From Leptolyngbyaceae cyanobacterium M33_DOE_097 (GTDB lineage Bacteria > Cyanobacteriota > Cyanobacteriia > Leptolyngbyales > Leptolyngbyaceae): a stretch of 34,435 bases of DNA. Shown here piece by piece: positions 14,920 through 23,749 of this stretch (the stretch's first letter is position 1; each line of letters begins with the position of its first letter). The DNA is taken from assembly GCA_015296075.1 (NCBI GenBank), contig DVDV01000146.1, positions 1 through 34,435 on the forward strand, written 5' to 3'. The notes below the pieces were generated by a model. It had not been told where the DNA came from. It saw only the letters and a list, made by a program, of their open reading frames with translations, and ran no database searches. A program made the position numbers and the translations under genes.

Positions 14920-16200
14920 ATGCGATCGCTCCTCTGGTTCATTCCCTCCCTGTGTTTACTGAGCTTTGCAGCAGCAGCAGAGGCTGCAAATCCTGATCAT
15001 GTCAAGCGCTTACTCCGCACTAATCAGTGCGCCCGTTGTGATCTGAGTGAAGCTAATTTAAAGACTGCAAACTTGTTTGGGGCCAACCTCGTTGGGGCTA
15101 ACCTGCAAGGAGCCGATTTGAGCGGAGCCAATCTAGGTTCTGCAAACTTAACCGATGCCAACCTGAGTGGAGCCAATTTAACCCAGGCCTACCTGTTTGG
15201 GGCGGTTTTAGACAGCACCAATTTGAGTAATGCCAATCTTCAGTCGGCTTACCTGCGGGATGCAACGTTGGTAAACGTCAATATCTCAGGAGCCAATCTG
15301 ACAAAGGTGAACCTGAGTCGCACGAATCTAGGCAGCGTTCAGCTAGCGGGCGCAGATTTAAGCGGGGCAAATCTGAGTGACACCAGCTTTGTGGATGTGC
15401 GCATTTCTGGCGCGAGTCCCAATAATAATTTGCGCGATTTAGCCCCTGCCCTTTTTACCCAAAGTTTCTGTTTAACAGATACCCGCAGCAACTCGGGCAT
15501 GGATGAGTTTTTTAGGTCGTTAAAGTCATCAGGGATCACCTTACTGCGCGGCGATCTGACAGGCACCAATCTCAGCAACGCCAATCTTCAGAATGCGATG
15601 ATGGCGAACTTGTCACTTGACAACGCCGACCTGACAAACGCAAATATGAATGGCACGATCTTACGGTGCAGTAGCTTAAAGAATGCCAAGCTTGACGGAG
15701 CCGATCTCAAAGATGCAGTGCTAGAAGCGGCTGTGTTAGAAGGTGCCAGCACAACGGGCATTCAAAATGCCAGCCTTGAAAATGTTTCTCCAGGCGTGAC
15801 CGAGCAGCAAATGCGAGCTTACCAGGCTGAAGGGAGAACTTACGTTGGCTCAATGAGTCGGGCACAGCAGGCGTATTTTCTGGAAAGAGAGCGCTTTGCC
15901 AGCACCATCAAAGAACTTCAGATTGGCATTTCTGAAAATACTGAGCGTTACCAATACCGGATATTCAGTTACCCTCAGCGAAACCGCGCCGTAATGGTTG
16001 CTGGAATTCCTAAAAATAAGGGGTTCAAGACCTACATCGGGCTAATTAGCGTTGGCGGTGCAAGCCCTAACGAGCTGCGGACGTTCTCAACGATATGTGA
16101 AAGTGAAGTGGCAAAACCGCTGCTACCAAAACTACCGCCAATGCCTACGGGACGAGAGACGCAAGCAATGGTGTGCCCAGACGGGTTCAAAAAACTCTAG
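14920..16200 (+). CDS. Secreted pentapeptide-repeat protein with C-terminal PilA-like G/H domain
   Basis: This is a 426-residue protein. The start at 14920 gives a clean Sec signal peptide (MRSLLWFIPSLCLLSFAAAAEA, cleaved before ANPD). A CARC pair follows at about 37-40. Pentapeptide repeats of the A(D/N)Lxx type fill about 43-165, are broken by a non-repeat insert (about 165-210, including FTQSFCLTDTRSN), and resume to about 285. The C-terminal 130 residues (YVGSMSRAQQAYFLERERFASTI, then a beta region and a Cys pair, ICES...MVCPDG) match the type IV pilin-like G and H domain of cyanobacteria. The hydrophobic pilin helix and prepilin peptidase site are absent; the pentapeptide solenoid stands in their place. 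It is probably periplasmic or exported. The 3' end faces the next gene with 12 bp between stops. Confidence 0.86.
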   Translation: MRSLLWFIPSLCLLSFAAAAEAANPDHVKRLLRTNQCARCDLSEANLKTANLFGANLVGANLQGADLSGANLGSANLTDANLSGANLTQAYLFGAVLDSTNLSNANLQSAYLRDATLVNVNISGANLTKVNLSRTNLGSVQLAGADLSGANLSDTSFVDVRISGASPNNNLRDLAPALFTQSFCLTDTRSNSGMDEFFRSLKSSGITLLRGDLTGTNLSNANLQNAMMANLSLDNADLTNANMNGTILRCSSLKNAKLDGADLKDAVLEAAVLEGASTTGIQNASLENVSPGVTEQQMRAYQAEGRTYVGSMSRAQQAYFLERERFASTIKELQIGISENTERYQYRIFSYPQRNRAVMVAGIPKNKGFKTYIGLISVGGASPNELRTFSTICESEVAKPLLPKLPPMPTGRETQAMVCPDGFKKL

Positions 16201-16212
16201 GAAACTGCCGAA

Positions 16213-16914
16213 TTATGGGTGGCGCAGACAAATAACAACCGTTTGCTTGCCACCCGGACCAGGCTGACAGCTAATTTCACCGCCCTGCACCTCAATTCGC
16301 CGACAACACAAAACAATTTCAGTGGCAAAGTCACGATTGCCTGGAGGTGCAAATCTCTGGGCAGTCACTTTAATCAGGATGCGATCGCCCATTAACTCAG
16401 CCCCTAAAATAACCGGACTGGTCAACTCTGAGTAACGGGTGCCACGGGCAAGTAGATCGGTAATGACCGCTTCTAACAGCTCGCGATCAGCAATCACACT
16501 GGGCAAAAAGTCGGCTAACTCTAAGATGAGACGACAAATACTGCCATGCGTAGGAGCTTGCAGATGACGGCTAACCGACAACAAAAGAGTGCGTAATTCA
16601 ATCGTCTCTAGCCGAACCTCGACTTTACCAGCTTCTAATTTTTGTAACAGCATTGTGTCAGCGAGCAGATCAGTCAGGCTATCAACCTCGTGTTGCAACT
16701 TAGCCAAATGTTCTCGCCACTCTGGCAATTCTGAAACAGCTTGCAGTCGATCAGAATGCACACCCATCGAATCTAGTGATTTACCAATGCGCCGCTCTAG
16801 AGAAGTGACCACTGCACGCTGAGCTGCTAAGTAGCGCCGCAGCTCCTCATTTTGGCTTTGCAGATGGTGTAGCTCGCTCCGAACAGAGGGAGTCGTTGCT
16901 AATGGCTGAGACAT
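16213..16914 (-). CDS. Degenerate histidine-kinase-like protein
   Basis: This is a 233-residue protein from the ATG at 16914; the open frame also has a TTG at 16926. An N-terminal coiled coil (about residues 8-50, LHHLQSQNEELRRYLAAQRA) leads into helices that resemble a DHp domain, ending in LLADTMLLQKLEAGKVEV and ELRTLLLSVSRHLQ, a typical link from DHp to the ATPase domain. The ATPase half is short. Where the N box NLLxNAxKYS is expected it has DLLARGTRYS, so both Asn are lost. No G1 (DxGxG) or GLGL box is visible, although IVLCCRRIEVQGGEISCQPGPGGKQT resembles the end of the domain. No phosphorylatable His stands in an H-E/D-L-R/K context. I infer a pseudo-kinase that may dimerise or bind another regulator. 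Confidence 0.75.
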   Translation of the reverse strand: MSQPLATTPSVRSELHHLQSQNEELRRYLAAQRAVVTSLERRIGKSLDSMGVHSDRLQAVSELPEWREHLAKLQHEVDSLTDLLADTMLLQKLEAGKVEVRLETIELRTLLLSVSRHLQAPTHGSICRLILELADFLPSVIADRELLEAVITDLLARGTRYSELTSPVILGAELMGDRILIKVTAQRFAPPGNRDFATEIVLCCRRIEVQGGEISCQPGPGGKQTVVICLRHP

Positions 16915-17359
16915 TGTATTAAACAACTTTTATTCTTAAGTTAGTTATAGCGCACTCTATTAAGGAAAGTAACAAATTATCAGCTTTATCTTAAAAAACT
17001 TTGATTGTCTTTAGATTCTTCTGCGTTTTGGGGATCTTGCACGTCGCTTTATGTGGAAAACGATCGCCTGGCGGTGAAGCTATAGGGAGGCAAAGTCCTT
17101 TTAAGGGGCGTTTCCAGAGTGTCATCTCTCTATAGGAGTTGCTTACCCATGCTGAGATTTGCTTTCTGTAAGCTTTAAGAAGAGGCTTGGGAAGCAGAAA
17201 GTTCCTGATTTGCAGTGTGCATCCCGTGAAATGGAGTGAACCGGGGTTGAAAGCTGATCTCCAATCAAAAGCAGTTTAACCCGGCACTTCTAACATCCTT
17301 GCGATCGCCAATCAAGCGGCTGAAACGTACATCTACTCATCCTCACCCCCAGGTTTGCT
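16915..17359. other. Intergenic region between divergent genes
   Basis: About 445 bp hold the presumed promoters of the kinase-like gene (minus) and the lipoxygenase gene (plus). I find no reading frame with a ribosome-binding site, no RNA gene and no strong repeat. The lipoxygenase start has no evident Shine-Dalgarno sequence. Confidence 0.45.
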
Positions 17360-19300
17360 ATGGAGTTTTACTACCCCCCTCAAGAGTCAAAAGGGCGTTA
17401 CCGTTATGACCCGACGAGCCTCAAGCAGCAAGGGCCAGCACGCCTGTTTGGCTACATTGGTGAAGACAGCCTAGTGGCTTATATTGCAGAGCGTTTACAA
17501 GCTAATGCCTTAAATCAAGGGCAGCTCTCTCAGCCAATTAGTCTTTTTTTACAAAAAACTGAAGAAAATCAACTCAAGCTTAAAAATTCTTGGGTACAGC
17601 TTAATAATTTACTGTCTAGCACTAATTTCATTCCCGATTGGTTAGAGTTCAGCCTGCCACCCGGTGAAAGCTTCAGCCGAGACTTTATCCAAGACCGTCG
17701 AGATATGACGCTGACGCTTACCCTGGCAAAGCTCGCGGCTCAGATGAATGCCCGATTTAGCTTCGGTTCACCCACCGAAACCGCAAAAAAGCAGCGGCAG
17801 GCGTTTTACCAGACATTAGAAGGGTTGGGCCGCTCGCGCCCAGTTGTTAGCTTGATTCACGAACGCGAAGGCGAATTGAGCGATCGCGAATTTGCACGTC
17901 AACGGTTGGCTGGTTGTAACCCTACCGTGATTCGGAGTTTACAAGCCAGTGATCAGCCAATTTTGCAGAGTGTGGGCGGGCGATCGCTAACTTTAGCCAA
18001 CGCAACAGAGGTTGATTTAGCAGATGCAGCGGCAGCCAACCGCCTGTTTGTCGCCGATTATTCCTTCTTAAAAGACTTGACTGCGGCAGAGCTGCAACCC
18101 GGTCGATATGTGGGTCGCCCCACTGCGGTGTTTTATCGCGGTGACTCCGGTTTAGAGCCTGCGTTGATCCGTCTGTCATCGGGCAGGGTACTGTTCCCCC
18201 CACAGATGGGTACAGCCAAAGATGATTGGATGCGAGCCAAGCTGATGGTGCAATGCGCTGACCTGACGCAACACGAGTTAATTGCTCATCTGGGCGATAC
18301 CCATTTAGCCATGGAAGCCTTTGCGATCGCCACACCGCGCCAACTCCCCCAAAACCACCCGCTTTATCGCCTGTTGAAACCCCACTTCCGGTTTTTGCTA
18401 GCAATCAACCAACGGGGCAACCAACTGTTATTAGGTGAAGGAGCGGCGATCGAAAACTTGTTAGCCCCCACCCGCGAGGCTTCGATTGATTTAATTAACC
18501 GAGCTTACCGAGAGAAGTCGTTTGCCAGTTACGCCCTGCCCACCCAGTTAAAACAACGCGGCGTTGGGGTTGACTCTGGCATCGCCGATTTTCCCTATCG
18601 AGATGATGCGCTGTTGCTGTGGGAGGCGATCGCCCGTTACGTGGAGCAATTTTTGGGTCGCTACTATCCCGATGATGTGGCTGTTCAGCAAGACCCGTAC
18701 CTGCAAGCCTGGGCCGCTGAGCTGGGCGCACCCCTATCGCACGATCTCGCCGATGCATTTCCCCAAGCACCGAGTTGGTTACCCTCTGAGCTTGCCACTC
18801 AGGTAGACCTCGATTTGCAGGATCTGCCAAATTACCCGCGCGTGCCCGATTTTCCTACGGCTGAAGCACCCGGCAGACTGACGACAGTACAGCAGCTTCT
18901 CGACGTGGCAACACAGCTTATCTTTACCTGCACGGCCCAACACGCTGCCGTTAACTTTAGCCAGTTTGACTACGGTGGGTTTGTTTCCAACGCGCCGATG
19001 TCGCTGCAACAGCCACCAGAACAAGCAGATTCGATCGCGACGTTGTTGCCCTCACCTGAGCAAGAACTCGCCCAGATGGAGCTAACGTTTGCTTTAAGTG
19101 GCATCCGTTGGGGTCAAATTGGGTTTCCTGATCAAGCACCGAGCGATCGCGGCGACCTCAAACTTTTGCAAGCCTTGCGGCAAGAGTTGAGTGCTATCGA
19201 GCGGTGCATCAATAGTCGTAATCAGAAACGGCTACAACGCTGGGGCGTCGATTACCCTTATTTGTTACCATCGCGGATCCCAAACAGCATCAATATCTAG
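17360..19300 (+). CDS. Lipoxygenase
   Basis: This 646-residue non-haem iron dioxygenase adds O2 to polyunsaturated fatty acids such as linoleate or linolenate. All five iron ligands can be placed: His310 and His315 (HLGDTHLAMEAF), His528 and Asn532 (QHAAVNFSQFDYGG), and the C-terminal carboxylate of Ile646 (PNSINI at the very end). PRQLPQNHPLYRLLKPHFRF is the usual conserved segment after the first ligands. Aligning it with soybean LOX-1 places Gly353 (INQRGNQLLL) at the Coffa site, where Ala usually gives S and Gly gives R products. There is no PLAT/C2 domain at the N-terminus, as in other bacterial forms, and no signal peptide. It sits alone between a kinase-like gene and plmA; no hydroperoxide lyase or allene oxide synthase is beside it. 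Confidence 0.95.
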   Translation: MEFYYPPQESKGRYRYDPTSLKQQGPARLFGYIGEDSLVAYIAERLQANALNQGQLSQPISLFLQKTEENQLKLKNSWVQLNNLLSSTNFIPDWLEFSLPPGESFSRDFIQDRRDMTLTLTLAKLAAQMNARFSFGSPTETAKKQRQAFYQTLEGLGRSRPVVSLIHEREGELSDREFARQRLAGCNPTVIRSLQASDQPILQSVGGRSLTLANATEVDLADAAAANRLFVADYSFLKDLTAAELQPGRYVGRPTAVFYRGDSGLEPALIRLSSGRVLFPPQMGTAKDDWMRAKLMVQCADLTQHELIAHLGDTHLAMEAFAIATPRQLPQNHPLYRLLKPHFRFLLAINQRGNQLLLGEGAAIENLLAPTREASIDLINRAYREKSFASYALPTQLKQRGVGVDSGIADFPYRDDALLLWEAIARYVEQFLGRYYPDDVAVQQDPYLQAWAAELGAPLSHDLADAFPQAPSWLPSELATQVDLDLQDLPNYPRVPDFPTAEAPGRLTTVQQLLDVATQLIFTCTAQHAAVNFSQFDYGGFVSNAPMSLQQPPEQADSIATLLPSPEQELAQMELTFALSGIRWGQIGFPDQAPSDRGDLKLLQALRQELSAIERCINSRNQKRLQRWGVDYPYLLPSRIPNSINI

Positions 19301-21025: not shown

Positions 21026-22189
21026 ATGGAGATTGTCGTTACTGGAATCGGCTTACTTACGGCTTTCGGCCCCCGCGACTCTACCTGGAAGCAGTTACTC
21101 GCTGGTCAAACTGCCATTCGCCTCAGTCAGCCCTATTCCGAATTACCAGCCAAACCCCTGGCCCTAATTCACGCAACCCCGATCGCCCTCGAAACTCTCA
21201 CTCAAGCTGTCATCCAAGCTGCGTTAGAAGATGCTGGATTAACCCCTCCATTAGTGGATTGTGGCGTGGTGATCGGGTCGAGTCGTGGCAATCAAGCCAG
21301 GTGGGAGCAGCTCGCTCGCCAATCTTGGACTGAAACACAAGAAACGAGCCAACCACCTGAGTATCCCCTGCAAAACTGGCTGAGTACGTTTCCCAACACA
21401 GCCGCTGTACAAGCTGCGAGGAGCATTCAAACACAGGCCCCCGTTTTGTCCCCAATGGCAGCGTGTGCGACTGGTATCTGGTCGATCATGCAGGGAACGG
21501 AGCTGATCCGCACAGGGCAGTGCGATCGCGTCTTAGCGGGAGCCGTCGAAGCACCGATTACACCGCTGACTCTAGCCGGGTTTGACCGGATGGGGGCACT
21601 GGCACCCACCGGAGCCTTTCCGTTTGACTGCGATCGCGAGGGCATGGTTTTAGGTGAAGGGGGAGCCGTCTTTGTCCTCGAAACAGCCGAACTTGCACAG
21701 CAGCGTCAGGCAAAGGTTTACGGACAGATTCTTAGGGCGGGACTCTCCGCTGATGGATTTCATGTCAGCGCCCCTGAAATTGGGAGTCAGGCTGCGATCG
21801 CTGCCGTCAAGCAGTGCCTAAACCGCAGTGGACTAACTGCAACCGATATTGACTTTATCCACACTCACGGCACCGCGACCCAACTCAACGATCGCAACGA
21901 AGCATACCTGATCCAGCACTTGCTTCCCCAAGCCGCCGTGTTAGCTACCAAAGGCGCAACGGGGCATACGATTGGCGCATCCGGGGCATTGGGAGTGGCT
22001 TTTTCGCTATTAGCCCTGCAACAACAGCTTTTACCCCCCTGTGTTGGGTTGCGGCACCCCGCCTTTGAGCTGGATTTTGTCAGAACCACACGCCCAACTC
22101 CGGTTAACGTTGCGCTGTGTTTAAGCTTTGGCTTTGGCGGTCAAAACGGCGCGCTCGCCCTTGCGCGTCACGAATGCTTAGCTAACTGA
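21026..22189 (+). CDS. Beta-ketoacyl-ACP synthase (KAS II/FabF-like)
   Basis: This is a 387-residue protein. It has the thiolase-fold KAS signature: IVVTGIGLLTAFGP at the N-terminus, nucleophile Cys147 in MAACATG, His281 in HTHGTAT, Lys309 and His314 in TKGATGHTIGASGA, and the closing FGFGGQNGAL. All active-site residues are intact, so condensation of acyl and malonyl-ACP is expected. It is about 25 residues shorter than typical FabF and more divergent (VEAPITPLTLAGFDRMGALA is clear, but the region before Cys147 is unusual). It may therefore be a secondary KAS rather than the main FabF; no acpP, fabD or fabG is next to it. No Shine-Dalgarno is seen; a CCCCTAT repeat tract lies just upstream. 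The last 12 bp overlap the convergent pentapeptide gene. Confidence 0.9.
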   Translation: MEIVVTGIGLLTAFGPRDSTWKQLLAGQTAIRLSQPYSELPAKPLALIHATPIALETLTQAVIQAALEDAGLTPPLVDCGVVIGSSRGNQARWEQLARQSWTETQETSQPPEYPLQNWLSTFPNTAAVQAARSIQTQAPVLSPMAACATGIWSIMQGTELIRTGQCDRVLAGAVEAPITPLTLAGFDRMGALAPTGAFPFDCDREGMVLGEGGAVFVLETAELAQQRQAKVYGQILRAGLSADGFHVSAPEIGSQAAIAAVKQCLNRSGLTATDIDFIHTHGTATQLNDRNEAYLIQHLLPQAAVLATKGATGHTIGASGALGVAFSLLALQQQLLPPCVGLRHPAFELDFVRTTRPTPVNVALCLSFGFGGQNGALALARHECLAN

Positions 22190-23749
22190 ACGTTGAGGCG
22201 GGTCGTTGGTAAAGTCAAACGCCTGGATAAACTCCATCAACTGCCCAAACTCAGGTAGGGGAGTGGGGCGATCGCTCAGCAACGTGTTGGGAATCACCCC
22301 ATCATTCTCTTGAATCAAGCGGCTACCAAAACGCGGATGATGGTGAATTTTTAACACCTTACCGCTTGAACTGAGCAAACTCAGGCGACTGGGTGCTTTA
22401 AAGAATTTCGACCTGCCTAATCGTGCCAACACCTCATCCGGCAACGCACAGGCATGGATACTACTCAAAAACATCTCTCGCATTGAGGCAACCAGGCGAT
22501 ACCCCTCAGAATGAAAATAATTGGCAACTTCTTTTGCTTGCAAAAATTCGACAATTTTTGATAATTGGGCTTGCACCTGAGCCGCATCCTTAAATGGCAG
22601 AATGACGATGTAAGCCGCCAAAAATAGCCAGTTATCGCCCATCATTTCAAACGTCAAAGTAGTGCGGCGACGACCCAATTGAAGGTTTGGTGGCAGAAAG
22701 CTGAGCTTACTCTGATTCATCAGTTGCCGATAGGTCGCGGCTAGCAACATGTTGGTGTCGTGATCTAACGCAGCATCCACCTGAATGTTGACAGTTGGTG
22801 GTGCTTCTCGAAAGAAAACATGGGTATGGTCAGACCCAATTCGCTGCACAACACTCTGGTCTCCGTTAGGGCTTAAGTCTACCCACTCGCAAATCACGCC
22901 ATCTGTCTTAATGCCAAACCGAGGAACATTGTGGAGCTTTGTGCCTGTCAGGGTTGCCCCACTCAGGTCAGCTCCTACCCAATCGGCCCCAATTAGGTTG
23001 GCCCGCGTTAAATCAACGTGTACCAGACTCGTGTCGTTGAGATTGGCGTAACTCAAGTTTGCTCCGGTCAGGTTTGCCCCACTCAACTTTGCCCCGCTCA
23101 AGTCAGCCCAGCGTAGATCTGCCCCGCTCAAGTCAGCCCAGCGCAAATTAGCCCCACTTAAGTTAGCTCCCTGCAAATTGACACGGCTTAAATTGGCCTG
23201 TCGCAACTCGGTATTGCTCAGGTCAGCACTGCTCAGGTCAGCACTGCTTAAATCAGTGCCATGTAAGTTCGCTCCACTCAGCGTTGCGGCTGTAAACACT
23301 GCCCACTTTAGATCTGTGCGGCTCAGGTTGGCATTGCTTAGCACAGCTCCCCGCAGCTTGGCATCCTTTAAATCGGCACCACTGAGATTGGCTCGATTGA
23401 GGTTGGCTCCACTCAGGTCAGTGCGAGTCAGTTCTGCCCTCACAAGTGAGGCATTTGACATTTCAGCGTAGCTTAAATCAGCCATTGCCAGGTTTGCCAC
23501 ATTCAAAATGGCGTCTGTCAAATTTGCGTGGCTTAAGTTTGCCCCGCTCAGTTTTGTCACATTAAGCTTTGCCCCGCTAAGATTTGCGTGGCTCAAATTG
23601 CTGCCACTCAGATTTGCAACGCTTAAATTAGCCTGACTCAGCTCTGCGTGGCTCAAGTTGGCTCCACTTAAGTTTGCCTCGTTTAGGTTGACGCCAGCAA
23701 AGGTGCGTTCTCCGGTGGCGTACTTTTTAAGAATTTCCTCGGCATTCAT
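22178..23749 (-). CDS. Long pentapeptide-repeat protein with an uncharacterised C-terminal domain
   Basis: This is a 523-residue protein from the ATG at 23749. After a short helical cap (MNAEEILKKYATGERTF), A(N/D)LSx-type pentapeptides run from about residue 18 to 270, around 50 units, which would form a right-handed beta-solenoid of about 12 coils. Residues about 280-523 are a separate mixed domain (VNIQVDAALDHDTNMLLAATY, RRRTTLTFEMMGDNWLFLAAYIVILPF, then FLQAKEVANYF) that I do not recognise. It has no signal peptide, so it is probably cytosolic. Exact DNA duplications inside the repeat array (15 bp at 23216-23245 and a 23 bp word 30 bp apart at 23091-23143) show recent growth. It overlaps the convergent ketoacyl synthase by 12 bp and diverges from tyrA, with 86 bp for both promoters. 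Confidence 0.88.
   Translation of the reverse strand: MNAEEILKKYATGERTFAGVNLNEANLSGANLSHAELSQANLSVANLSGSNLSHANLSGAKLNVTKLSGANLSHANLTDAILNVANLAMADLSYAEMSNASLVRAELTRTDLSGANLNRANLSGADLKDAKLRGAVLSNANLSRTDLKWAVFTAATLSGANLHGTDLSSADLSSADLSNTELRQANLSRVNLQGANLSGANLRWADLSGADLRWADLSGAKLSGANLTGANLSYANLNDTSLVHVDLTRANLIGADWVGADLSGATLTGTKLHNVPRFGIKTDGVICEWVDLSPNGDQSVVQRIGSDHTHVFFREAPPTVNIQVDAALDHDTNMLLAATYRQLMNQSKLSFLPPNLQLGRRRTTLTFEMMGDNWLFLAAYIVILPFKDAAQVQAQLSKIVEFLQAKEVANYFHSEGYRLVASMREMFLSSIHACALPDEVLARLGRSKFFKAPSRLSLLSSSGKVLKIHHHPRFGSRLIQENDGVIPNTLLSDRPTPLPEFGQLMEFIQAFDFTNDPPQRSVS

Follow-up and report, generated by a model that had tools for sequence, protein, structure and literature searches.

Two of the described enzymes most comparable with the protein discussed here come from Cyanothece PCC 8801. 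CspLOX2 (PDB 5MED) is described as a cyanobacterial iron lipoxygenase that lacks a C2-like domain; it has 569 amino acids and makes an 11R product. CspLOX1 (PDB 5EK8) has glycine (Gly401) at the Coffa/Brash stereocontrol position, here called the switch, and its product is 9R (PMC5437038, Table 1). Exchanges at this position have been reported in both enzymes: A300G in CspLOX2 raised 9R-HPODE and lowered 11R, while CspLOX1 gained some 11-HPODE through G401A (PMC5437038). R-type activity is also on record for the lipoxygenase of Nostoc sp. SAG 25.82, with a 9R product (PMC4574779), and for a catalase fusion from Acaryochloris marina, which converts linoleate to a 9R and alpha-linolenate to a 12R product (PMC11719350). 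The enzyme of Pseudomonas aeruginosa, PA-LOX (5IR4), has a helical N-terminal domain. Ala420 stands at its switch and its product is 15S (PMC5437038).

The relationship between the switch and product configuration is commonly stated as a rule in which Gly gives R and Ala gives S. Seven of the eight enzymes in Table 1 of PMC5437038 are given as obeying it, the exception being CspLOX2 (Ala, 11R); M. salvinii Mn-LOX, which has Gly, is 9R in that table but 9S in PMC6587457, and as a 9S enzyme it would reduce the tally to six of eight. The cyanobacterial Osc-LOX has Ala and is S-type, as the rule says (PMC7606508). The A410G variant of the Myxococcus fulvus lipoxygenase MF-LOX1 is reported to make a product that is still 12S (PMC6612559), and a recent review allows the rule a few exceptions (PMC13059375).

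The window, by which we mean the whole 34,435-nucleotide stretch of contig DVDV01000146.1 of Leptolyngbyaceae cyanobacterium M33_DOE_097 that was analysed, contains a gene of this family that starts with ATG and runs as a single open frame. Its features are given below, where "clade" refers to the set of close relatives described later.

17360 to 19300, plus strand: lipoxygenase open reading frame, 646 amino acids (PF00305, 1.7e-62; CspLOX2, 3e-68; model Z scores 33.8 and 34.7).
17360 to 17650, plus strand: residues 1-97, an N-terminal extension that the clade conserves, low-confidence helices, no PLAT match (models, Pfam).
18287 to 18304, plus strand: iron ligands His310 and His315, with clamp residue Leu311 (CspLOX2 Leu258) between them (alignment).
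18404 to 18406, plus strand: clamp residue Ile349 (CspLOX2 Ile296; alignment).
18413 to 18415, plus strand: Arg352, invariant in the clade, opposite rabbit ALOX15 Arg403 (alignment).
18416 to 18418, plus strand: Gly353 (GGC), Coffa/Brash position (alignment to soybean LOX-1 and CspLOX2).
18428 to 18430, plus strand: Leu357 (CspLOX2 Leu304, soybean Leu546; alignment).
18731 to 18868, plus strand: residues 458-503, a clade-conserved stretch about 35 residues longer than its CspLOX2 counterpart (alignment, clade profile).
18941 to 18955, plus strand: iron ligands His528 and Asn532 (alignment).
19082 to 19096, plus strand: clamp residues Leu575 and Leu579 (CspLOX2 Leu502 and Leu506; alignment).
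19295 to 19297, plus strand: C-terminal Ile646, expected to be an iron ligand through its carboxylate (translation, clade conservation).

Judged from its sequence, the gene encodes an iron lipoxygenase without a detected PLAT domain. Lipoxygenase (PF00305) was the sole Pfam family found in the protein at E ≤ 0.001, and its score of 212.4 bits places the protein in the family, for which the curated cut-off is 23.6 bits; a search of NCBIfam returned no models at 0.001. The top match by sequence in the PDB was CspLOX2 (5med), together with its variants, followed by the Enhygromyxa salina lipoxygenase (8x8f) and an 11R-lipoxygenase (3vf1). CspLOX1, by contrast, is distant in sequence (1.4e-12) and has Tyr360 and Ile617 in its clamp. 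The iron ligands fall exactly at His310, His315, His528, Asn532 and the C-terminal Ile646, and all five are invariant in every one of the 39 clade rows that are at least 500 residues long. A PF00305 search of the organism's own 6.96-Mb genome (E ≤ 0.001) produced two matching stretches that represent one gene, and an additional lipoxygenase copy was rejected at that threshold.

Pfam searches of the full-length protein and of residues 1-97 taken separately detected no PLAT family at E ≤ 0.001, and both AlphaFold models build those residues as helices of low pLDDT and not as a PLAT or C2-like barrel. A hidden N-terminal PLAT domain was rejected for these reasons, local confidence in the models being low. 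The animal and plant chains listed in the structure search align only from their own residue 117 or later, and the match between the clade profile and CspLOX2 begins at profile column 98. Its own N-terminal extension and the longer stretch at residues 458-503 are hallmarks of the clade. The first-pass annotation had described a complete and PLAT-less lipoxygenase with this same set of ligands; the ligands it named are right, and its other points are supported.

The switch was located by alignment. Counted along the HPxYxLL block of a soybean LOX-1 fragment, mapped on PDB chains at 522-571, Ala542 comes 21st; the corresponding block in the window protein spans residues 333-353 and its 21st residue, aligned without a gap, is Gly353. 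The PDB alignment sets Gly353 opposite CspLOX2 Ala300, the same residue as soybean Ala542. The glycine associated with R-lipoxygenases is thus present at the Coffa site, where it had been placed previously. This assignment depends on sequence and not on the AlphaFold models, in which pLDDT is below 50 around residues 350-360, leaving the surroundings of Gly353 poorly defined. Five of the six clamp residues (L311, I349, G353, L357, L575 and L579) are the same as in CspLOX2 (L258, I296, A300, L304, L502 and L506), the sole change being A300 to Gly. The residue just ahead of the switch also distinguishes the two proteins, being Leu in CspLOX2 and Arg352 here. Arginine occupies this position in 39 of 39 clade rows and in none of the 47 from outside the clade (a single one has a gap there). 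By alignment, the counterpart of Arg352 in rabbit ALOX15 is Arg403 (the chain numbering is one lower), a residue that mutagenesis and docking have tied to the substrate carboxylate (PMC12396440, PMC11593649).

The complete ligands, the PLAT domain that was looked for and not found, the glycine at the Coffa position and the cyanobacterial kin make an active R-type enzyme the likeliest reading of the gene. The function that we would predict first is that of a dioxygenase acting on fatty acids with a 1,4-pentadiene unit, with a product that is likely to be R-configured. With moderate confidence we go further and propose an active PLAT-less iron lipoxygenase that makes mainly the 9R-hydroperoxide from C18 polyunsaturated fatty acids; the likeness of the clamp, the behaviour of CspLOX2 A300G, Gly401 of CspLOX1 and the presence of Arg352 all favour methyl-end-first binding and a 9R product. 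In such an enzyme a free C18 polyunsaturated fatty acid would enter methyl end first, with its carboxylate held by Arg352, and iron on H310, H315, H528, N532 and I646 would take hydrogen from C11. Gly353 would leave space for O2 near C9 and Leu357 would shield C13, so that the main product would be the 9R-hydroperoxide of linoleate or alpha-linolenate, accompanied by some 11R or 13S. The activity, substrate, orientation, 9R product and physiological role of the window enzyme are all matters that we infer from these comparisons. Twelve stretches of its own genome match the desaturase family PF00487, making a polyunsaturated substrate plausible; that family also includes enzymes acting on other substrates.

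Relatives of the protein form two sets, one at least about 49% identical over about 640 residues and the other, consisting of further bacterial lipoxygenases, at most about 37% identical. The former makes up the clade, whose 39 rows are set apart from the rest of a 66-row tree by a branch with SH-aLRT support of 100; the program warned of long branches meeting in this tree, and the clade's nearest outside kin are uncertain. Of 42 genomes from the window's family, 26 (the organism's own among them) contain a match at E ≤ 1e-80, as do 36 of 388 genomes sampled from the class; PF00305 of any kind was present in 57 of 386 genomes sampled from the phylum. Named members include Leptolyngbya-like filamentous cyanobacteria, Hormoscilla, Cyanomargarita, Kastovskya, Anabaena and Nostoc. 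Merging of identical rows reduced 111 loci to 43 rows (another alignment merged five), and the counts of switch and ligand residues use the 39 of these with 500 residues or more. The omitted rows are L099, which has Gly at the switch and one in-frame TAG; L017/L104, a gene divided into two rows by a frame change, whose switch-bearing half has Gly; and L070, a fragment that lacks the switch. Cut-short copies in two further genomes (L132 and L133) lie outside the counts. All of these copies look frame-changed, stopped or cut short, which may be due to assembly error.

The switch is variable within the clade: 33 of the 39 rows have Gly, two have Glu, two Ala, one Val and one Asp, a distribution for which the tree requires no fewer than five changes, and the variants retain all five iron ligands. 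Among the 47 outside rows, which are the loci that were fetched and a subset of the PF00305 matches in the phylum sample, there are 40 with Ala, seven with Gly and nothing else; Gly at the switch is therefore not confined to the clade. Those seven (L038, L042, L048, L049, L051, L052 and L055) are all from cyanobacterial genomes. Values of dN/dS were 0.10-0.17 across eight clade pairs, a sign of purifying selection, and were similar by type: 0.10-0.15 in four pairs with a Glu or Asp member, 0.10-0.17 in three Gly-Gly pairs and 0.12 in one Ala-Ala pair. For a ninth pair, the window with L079, dS was saturated. The two Glu rows, L110 and L111 (the same genes are found in L012 and L014), have a four-residue deletion after the switch and Gly in place of Leu311; this last change adjoins an iron ligand, yet dN/dS is 0.10.

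Variation of the switch among Gly, Glu, Ala, Val and Asp under purifying selection weakens the proposition that Gly means R. AnaLOX of Anabaena PCC 7120 makes a 9R product and has Ala at the switch. The first-pass annotation had applied the rule as an established one; seven of the eight tabulated enzymes, CspLOX1 among them, agree with it, but CspLOX2, MF-LOX1 A410G and the changes within the clade do not. This variation, together with the exceptions provided by CspLOX2 and MF-LOX1, leaves an R product likely but not established. The ligands, Arg352 and most clamp residues are fixed in the clade while the switch takes five different residues, and we entertain, tentatively and with some doubt, the possibility that the clade has been released from the Gly/Ala switch: another residue would set the stereochemistry, clade-specific Arg352 being a candidate, or branches with a charged switch would have acquired new chemistry. 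For the window enzyme it is unlikely, in our estimation, that stereochemistry is independent of Gly353, with S or mixed products and with other features of the clamp or of substrate entry dominating the clade. The assortment of residues at the relatives' switch and the failure of the rule for MF-LOX1 A410G and wild-type CspLOX2 speak for such independence, but Gly has been kept in most clade members, and CspLOX2 A300G and CspLOX1 tie it to 9R in cyanobacterial enzymes.

The window protein was modelled with a lipoxygenase fold at a mean pLDDT of 73.1. Foldseek matched this model to CspLOX2 at 9.3e-24, and PA-LOX ranked first by structure (Z 34.7, rmsd 2.7, 504 residues aligned), with CspLOX2 within 1 of that score (Z 33.8, about 505 residues). 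This was the only model used in the structure search; a second, made with 25 rows, had a mean pLDDT of 72.4, with residues 347-363 under 50, and was rejected as a source of better local structure. PA-LOX is described as having a helical N-terminal cap and as oxidising membrane lipids, and the window N-terminus is modelled as helices too. This likeness, and the 12R activity known in the cyanobacterial enzyme of Acaryochloris, would suit an omega-3-directed enzyme making 12R from alpha-linolenate, or one acting on membrane-bound acyl chains with the help of its N-terminal helices; Arg352 suggests instead the binding of a free carboxylate, and we regard both possibilities as improbable. It is likewise improbable that the main product is the bis-allylic 11R-hydroperoxide made by CspLOX2, even though the window enzyme nearly copies the clamp of that protein: the one clamp residue that differs is the switch itself, the same Ala to Gly change lowers 11R in CspLOX2, and it was the opposite exchange, G401A, that created some 11-HPODE in CspLOX1.

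There is no likely partner enzyme beside the gene in the window, as the first-pass annotation had also stated, and a partner gene was rejected because not one neighbour family recurs at every one of the 22 loci compared (L013 and L070 were left out). Protein kinases, the commonest neighbour family, are found at 11 of the 22, at differing distances and on differing strands. Over the stretch compared, a genome of the same genus has upstream pentapeptide-repeat and histidine-kinase-like genes in common with the window. Pentapeptide-repeat proteins are encoded on either side of the region, at 14920-16200 (plus strand) and 22178-23749 (minus strand), the first being conserved in the same genus. The short histidine-kinase-like part protein at 16213-16926 (minus strand) is far under curated cut-offs, has no Pfam matches and is kept beside the lipoxygenase in that genus. 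Scans for promoters and terminators gave no excess over shuffles.

At all nine Nostocaceae loci (L010, L011, L012, L014, L058, L062, L063, L064 and L066) a photolyase FAD-domain gene lies upstream on the opposite strand, no more than about 570 bases away, and the 13 others lack it; its product is about 280 amino acids long with PF03441 alone, as seen in both proteins tested. Photolyase-like matches in the window's own genome fall in open frames of 501 and 574 codons. At six of the 22 loci (L010, L012, L014, L058, L063 and L066) the lipoxygenase is followed, 24 to 1144 bases downstream and in the same orientation, by a gene for an AhpC/TSA redoxin, a possible reductase for lipoxygenase hydroperoxides; the best redoxin match in the window's own genome (51%) is on another contig. 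A lipoxygenase-fold protein shifted to hydroperoxide metabolism or some other role, likeliest in the Nostocaceae branch with Asp or Glu at the switch, would accord with that charged switch, the altered Glu rows with their low dN/dS and the redoxin neighbour, but is highly improbable given the ordinary clamp and full ligand set of the window protein.

We retain the prediction of an active, mainly 9R-forming enzyme. Cyanobacterial R-lipoxygenases have been published, making the gene less novel than had been implied; those of Nostoc SAG 25.82 and Acaryochloris belong to the R-type class predicted for it. The novel aspect that survives is the combination of features, no assayed cyanobacterial enzyme that is both PLAT-less and Gly-bearing having been found in the open-licence literature. 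CspLOX1 presumably keeps a beta-barrel domain and a helical extension, and hence is not a PLAT-less example. In that literature we found no characterised member of the clade, NpLOX1 (630 amino acids), NpLOX2 and NsLOX being outside the sequence comparison, and we found nothing in support of the suggested relevance to oxylipin signalling.

The window gene adds one probable member to the known R-type cyanobacterial lipoxygenases, perhaps uniting the PLAT-less architecture with Gly at the switch. It belongs to a clade that has arginine where mammalian ALOX15 has its carboxylate-binding arginine. The variable switch of this clade is the best lead to come from the analysis and is less usual than the R-type prediction itself: natural variation among Gly, Ala, Val, Asp and Glu amid near-constant active sites makes the Gly/Ala rule of stereocontrol directly testable.
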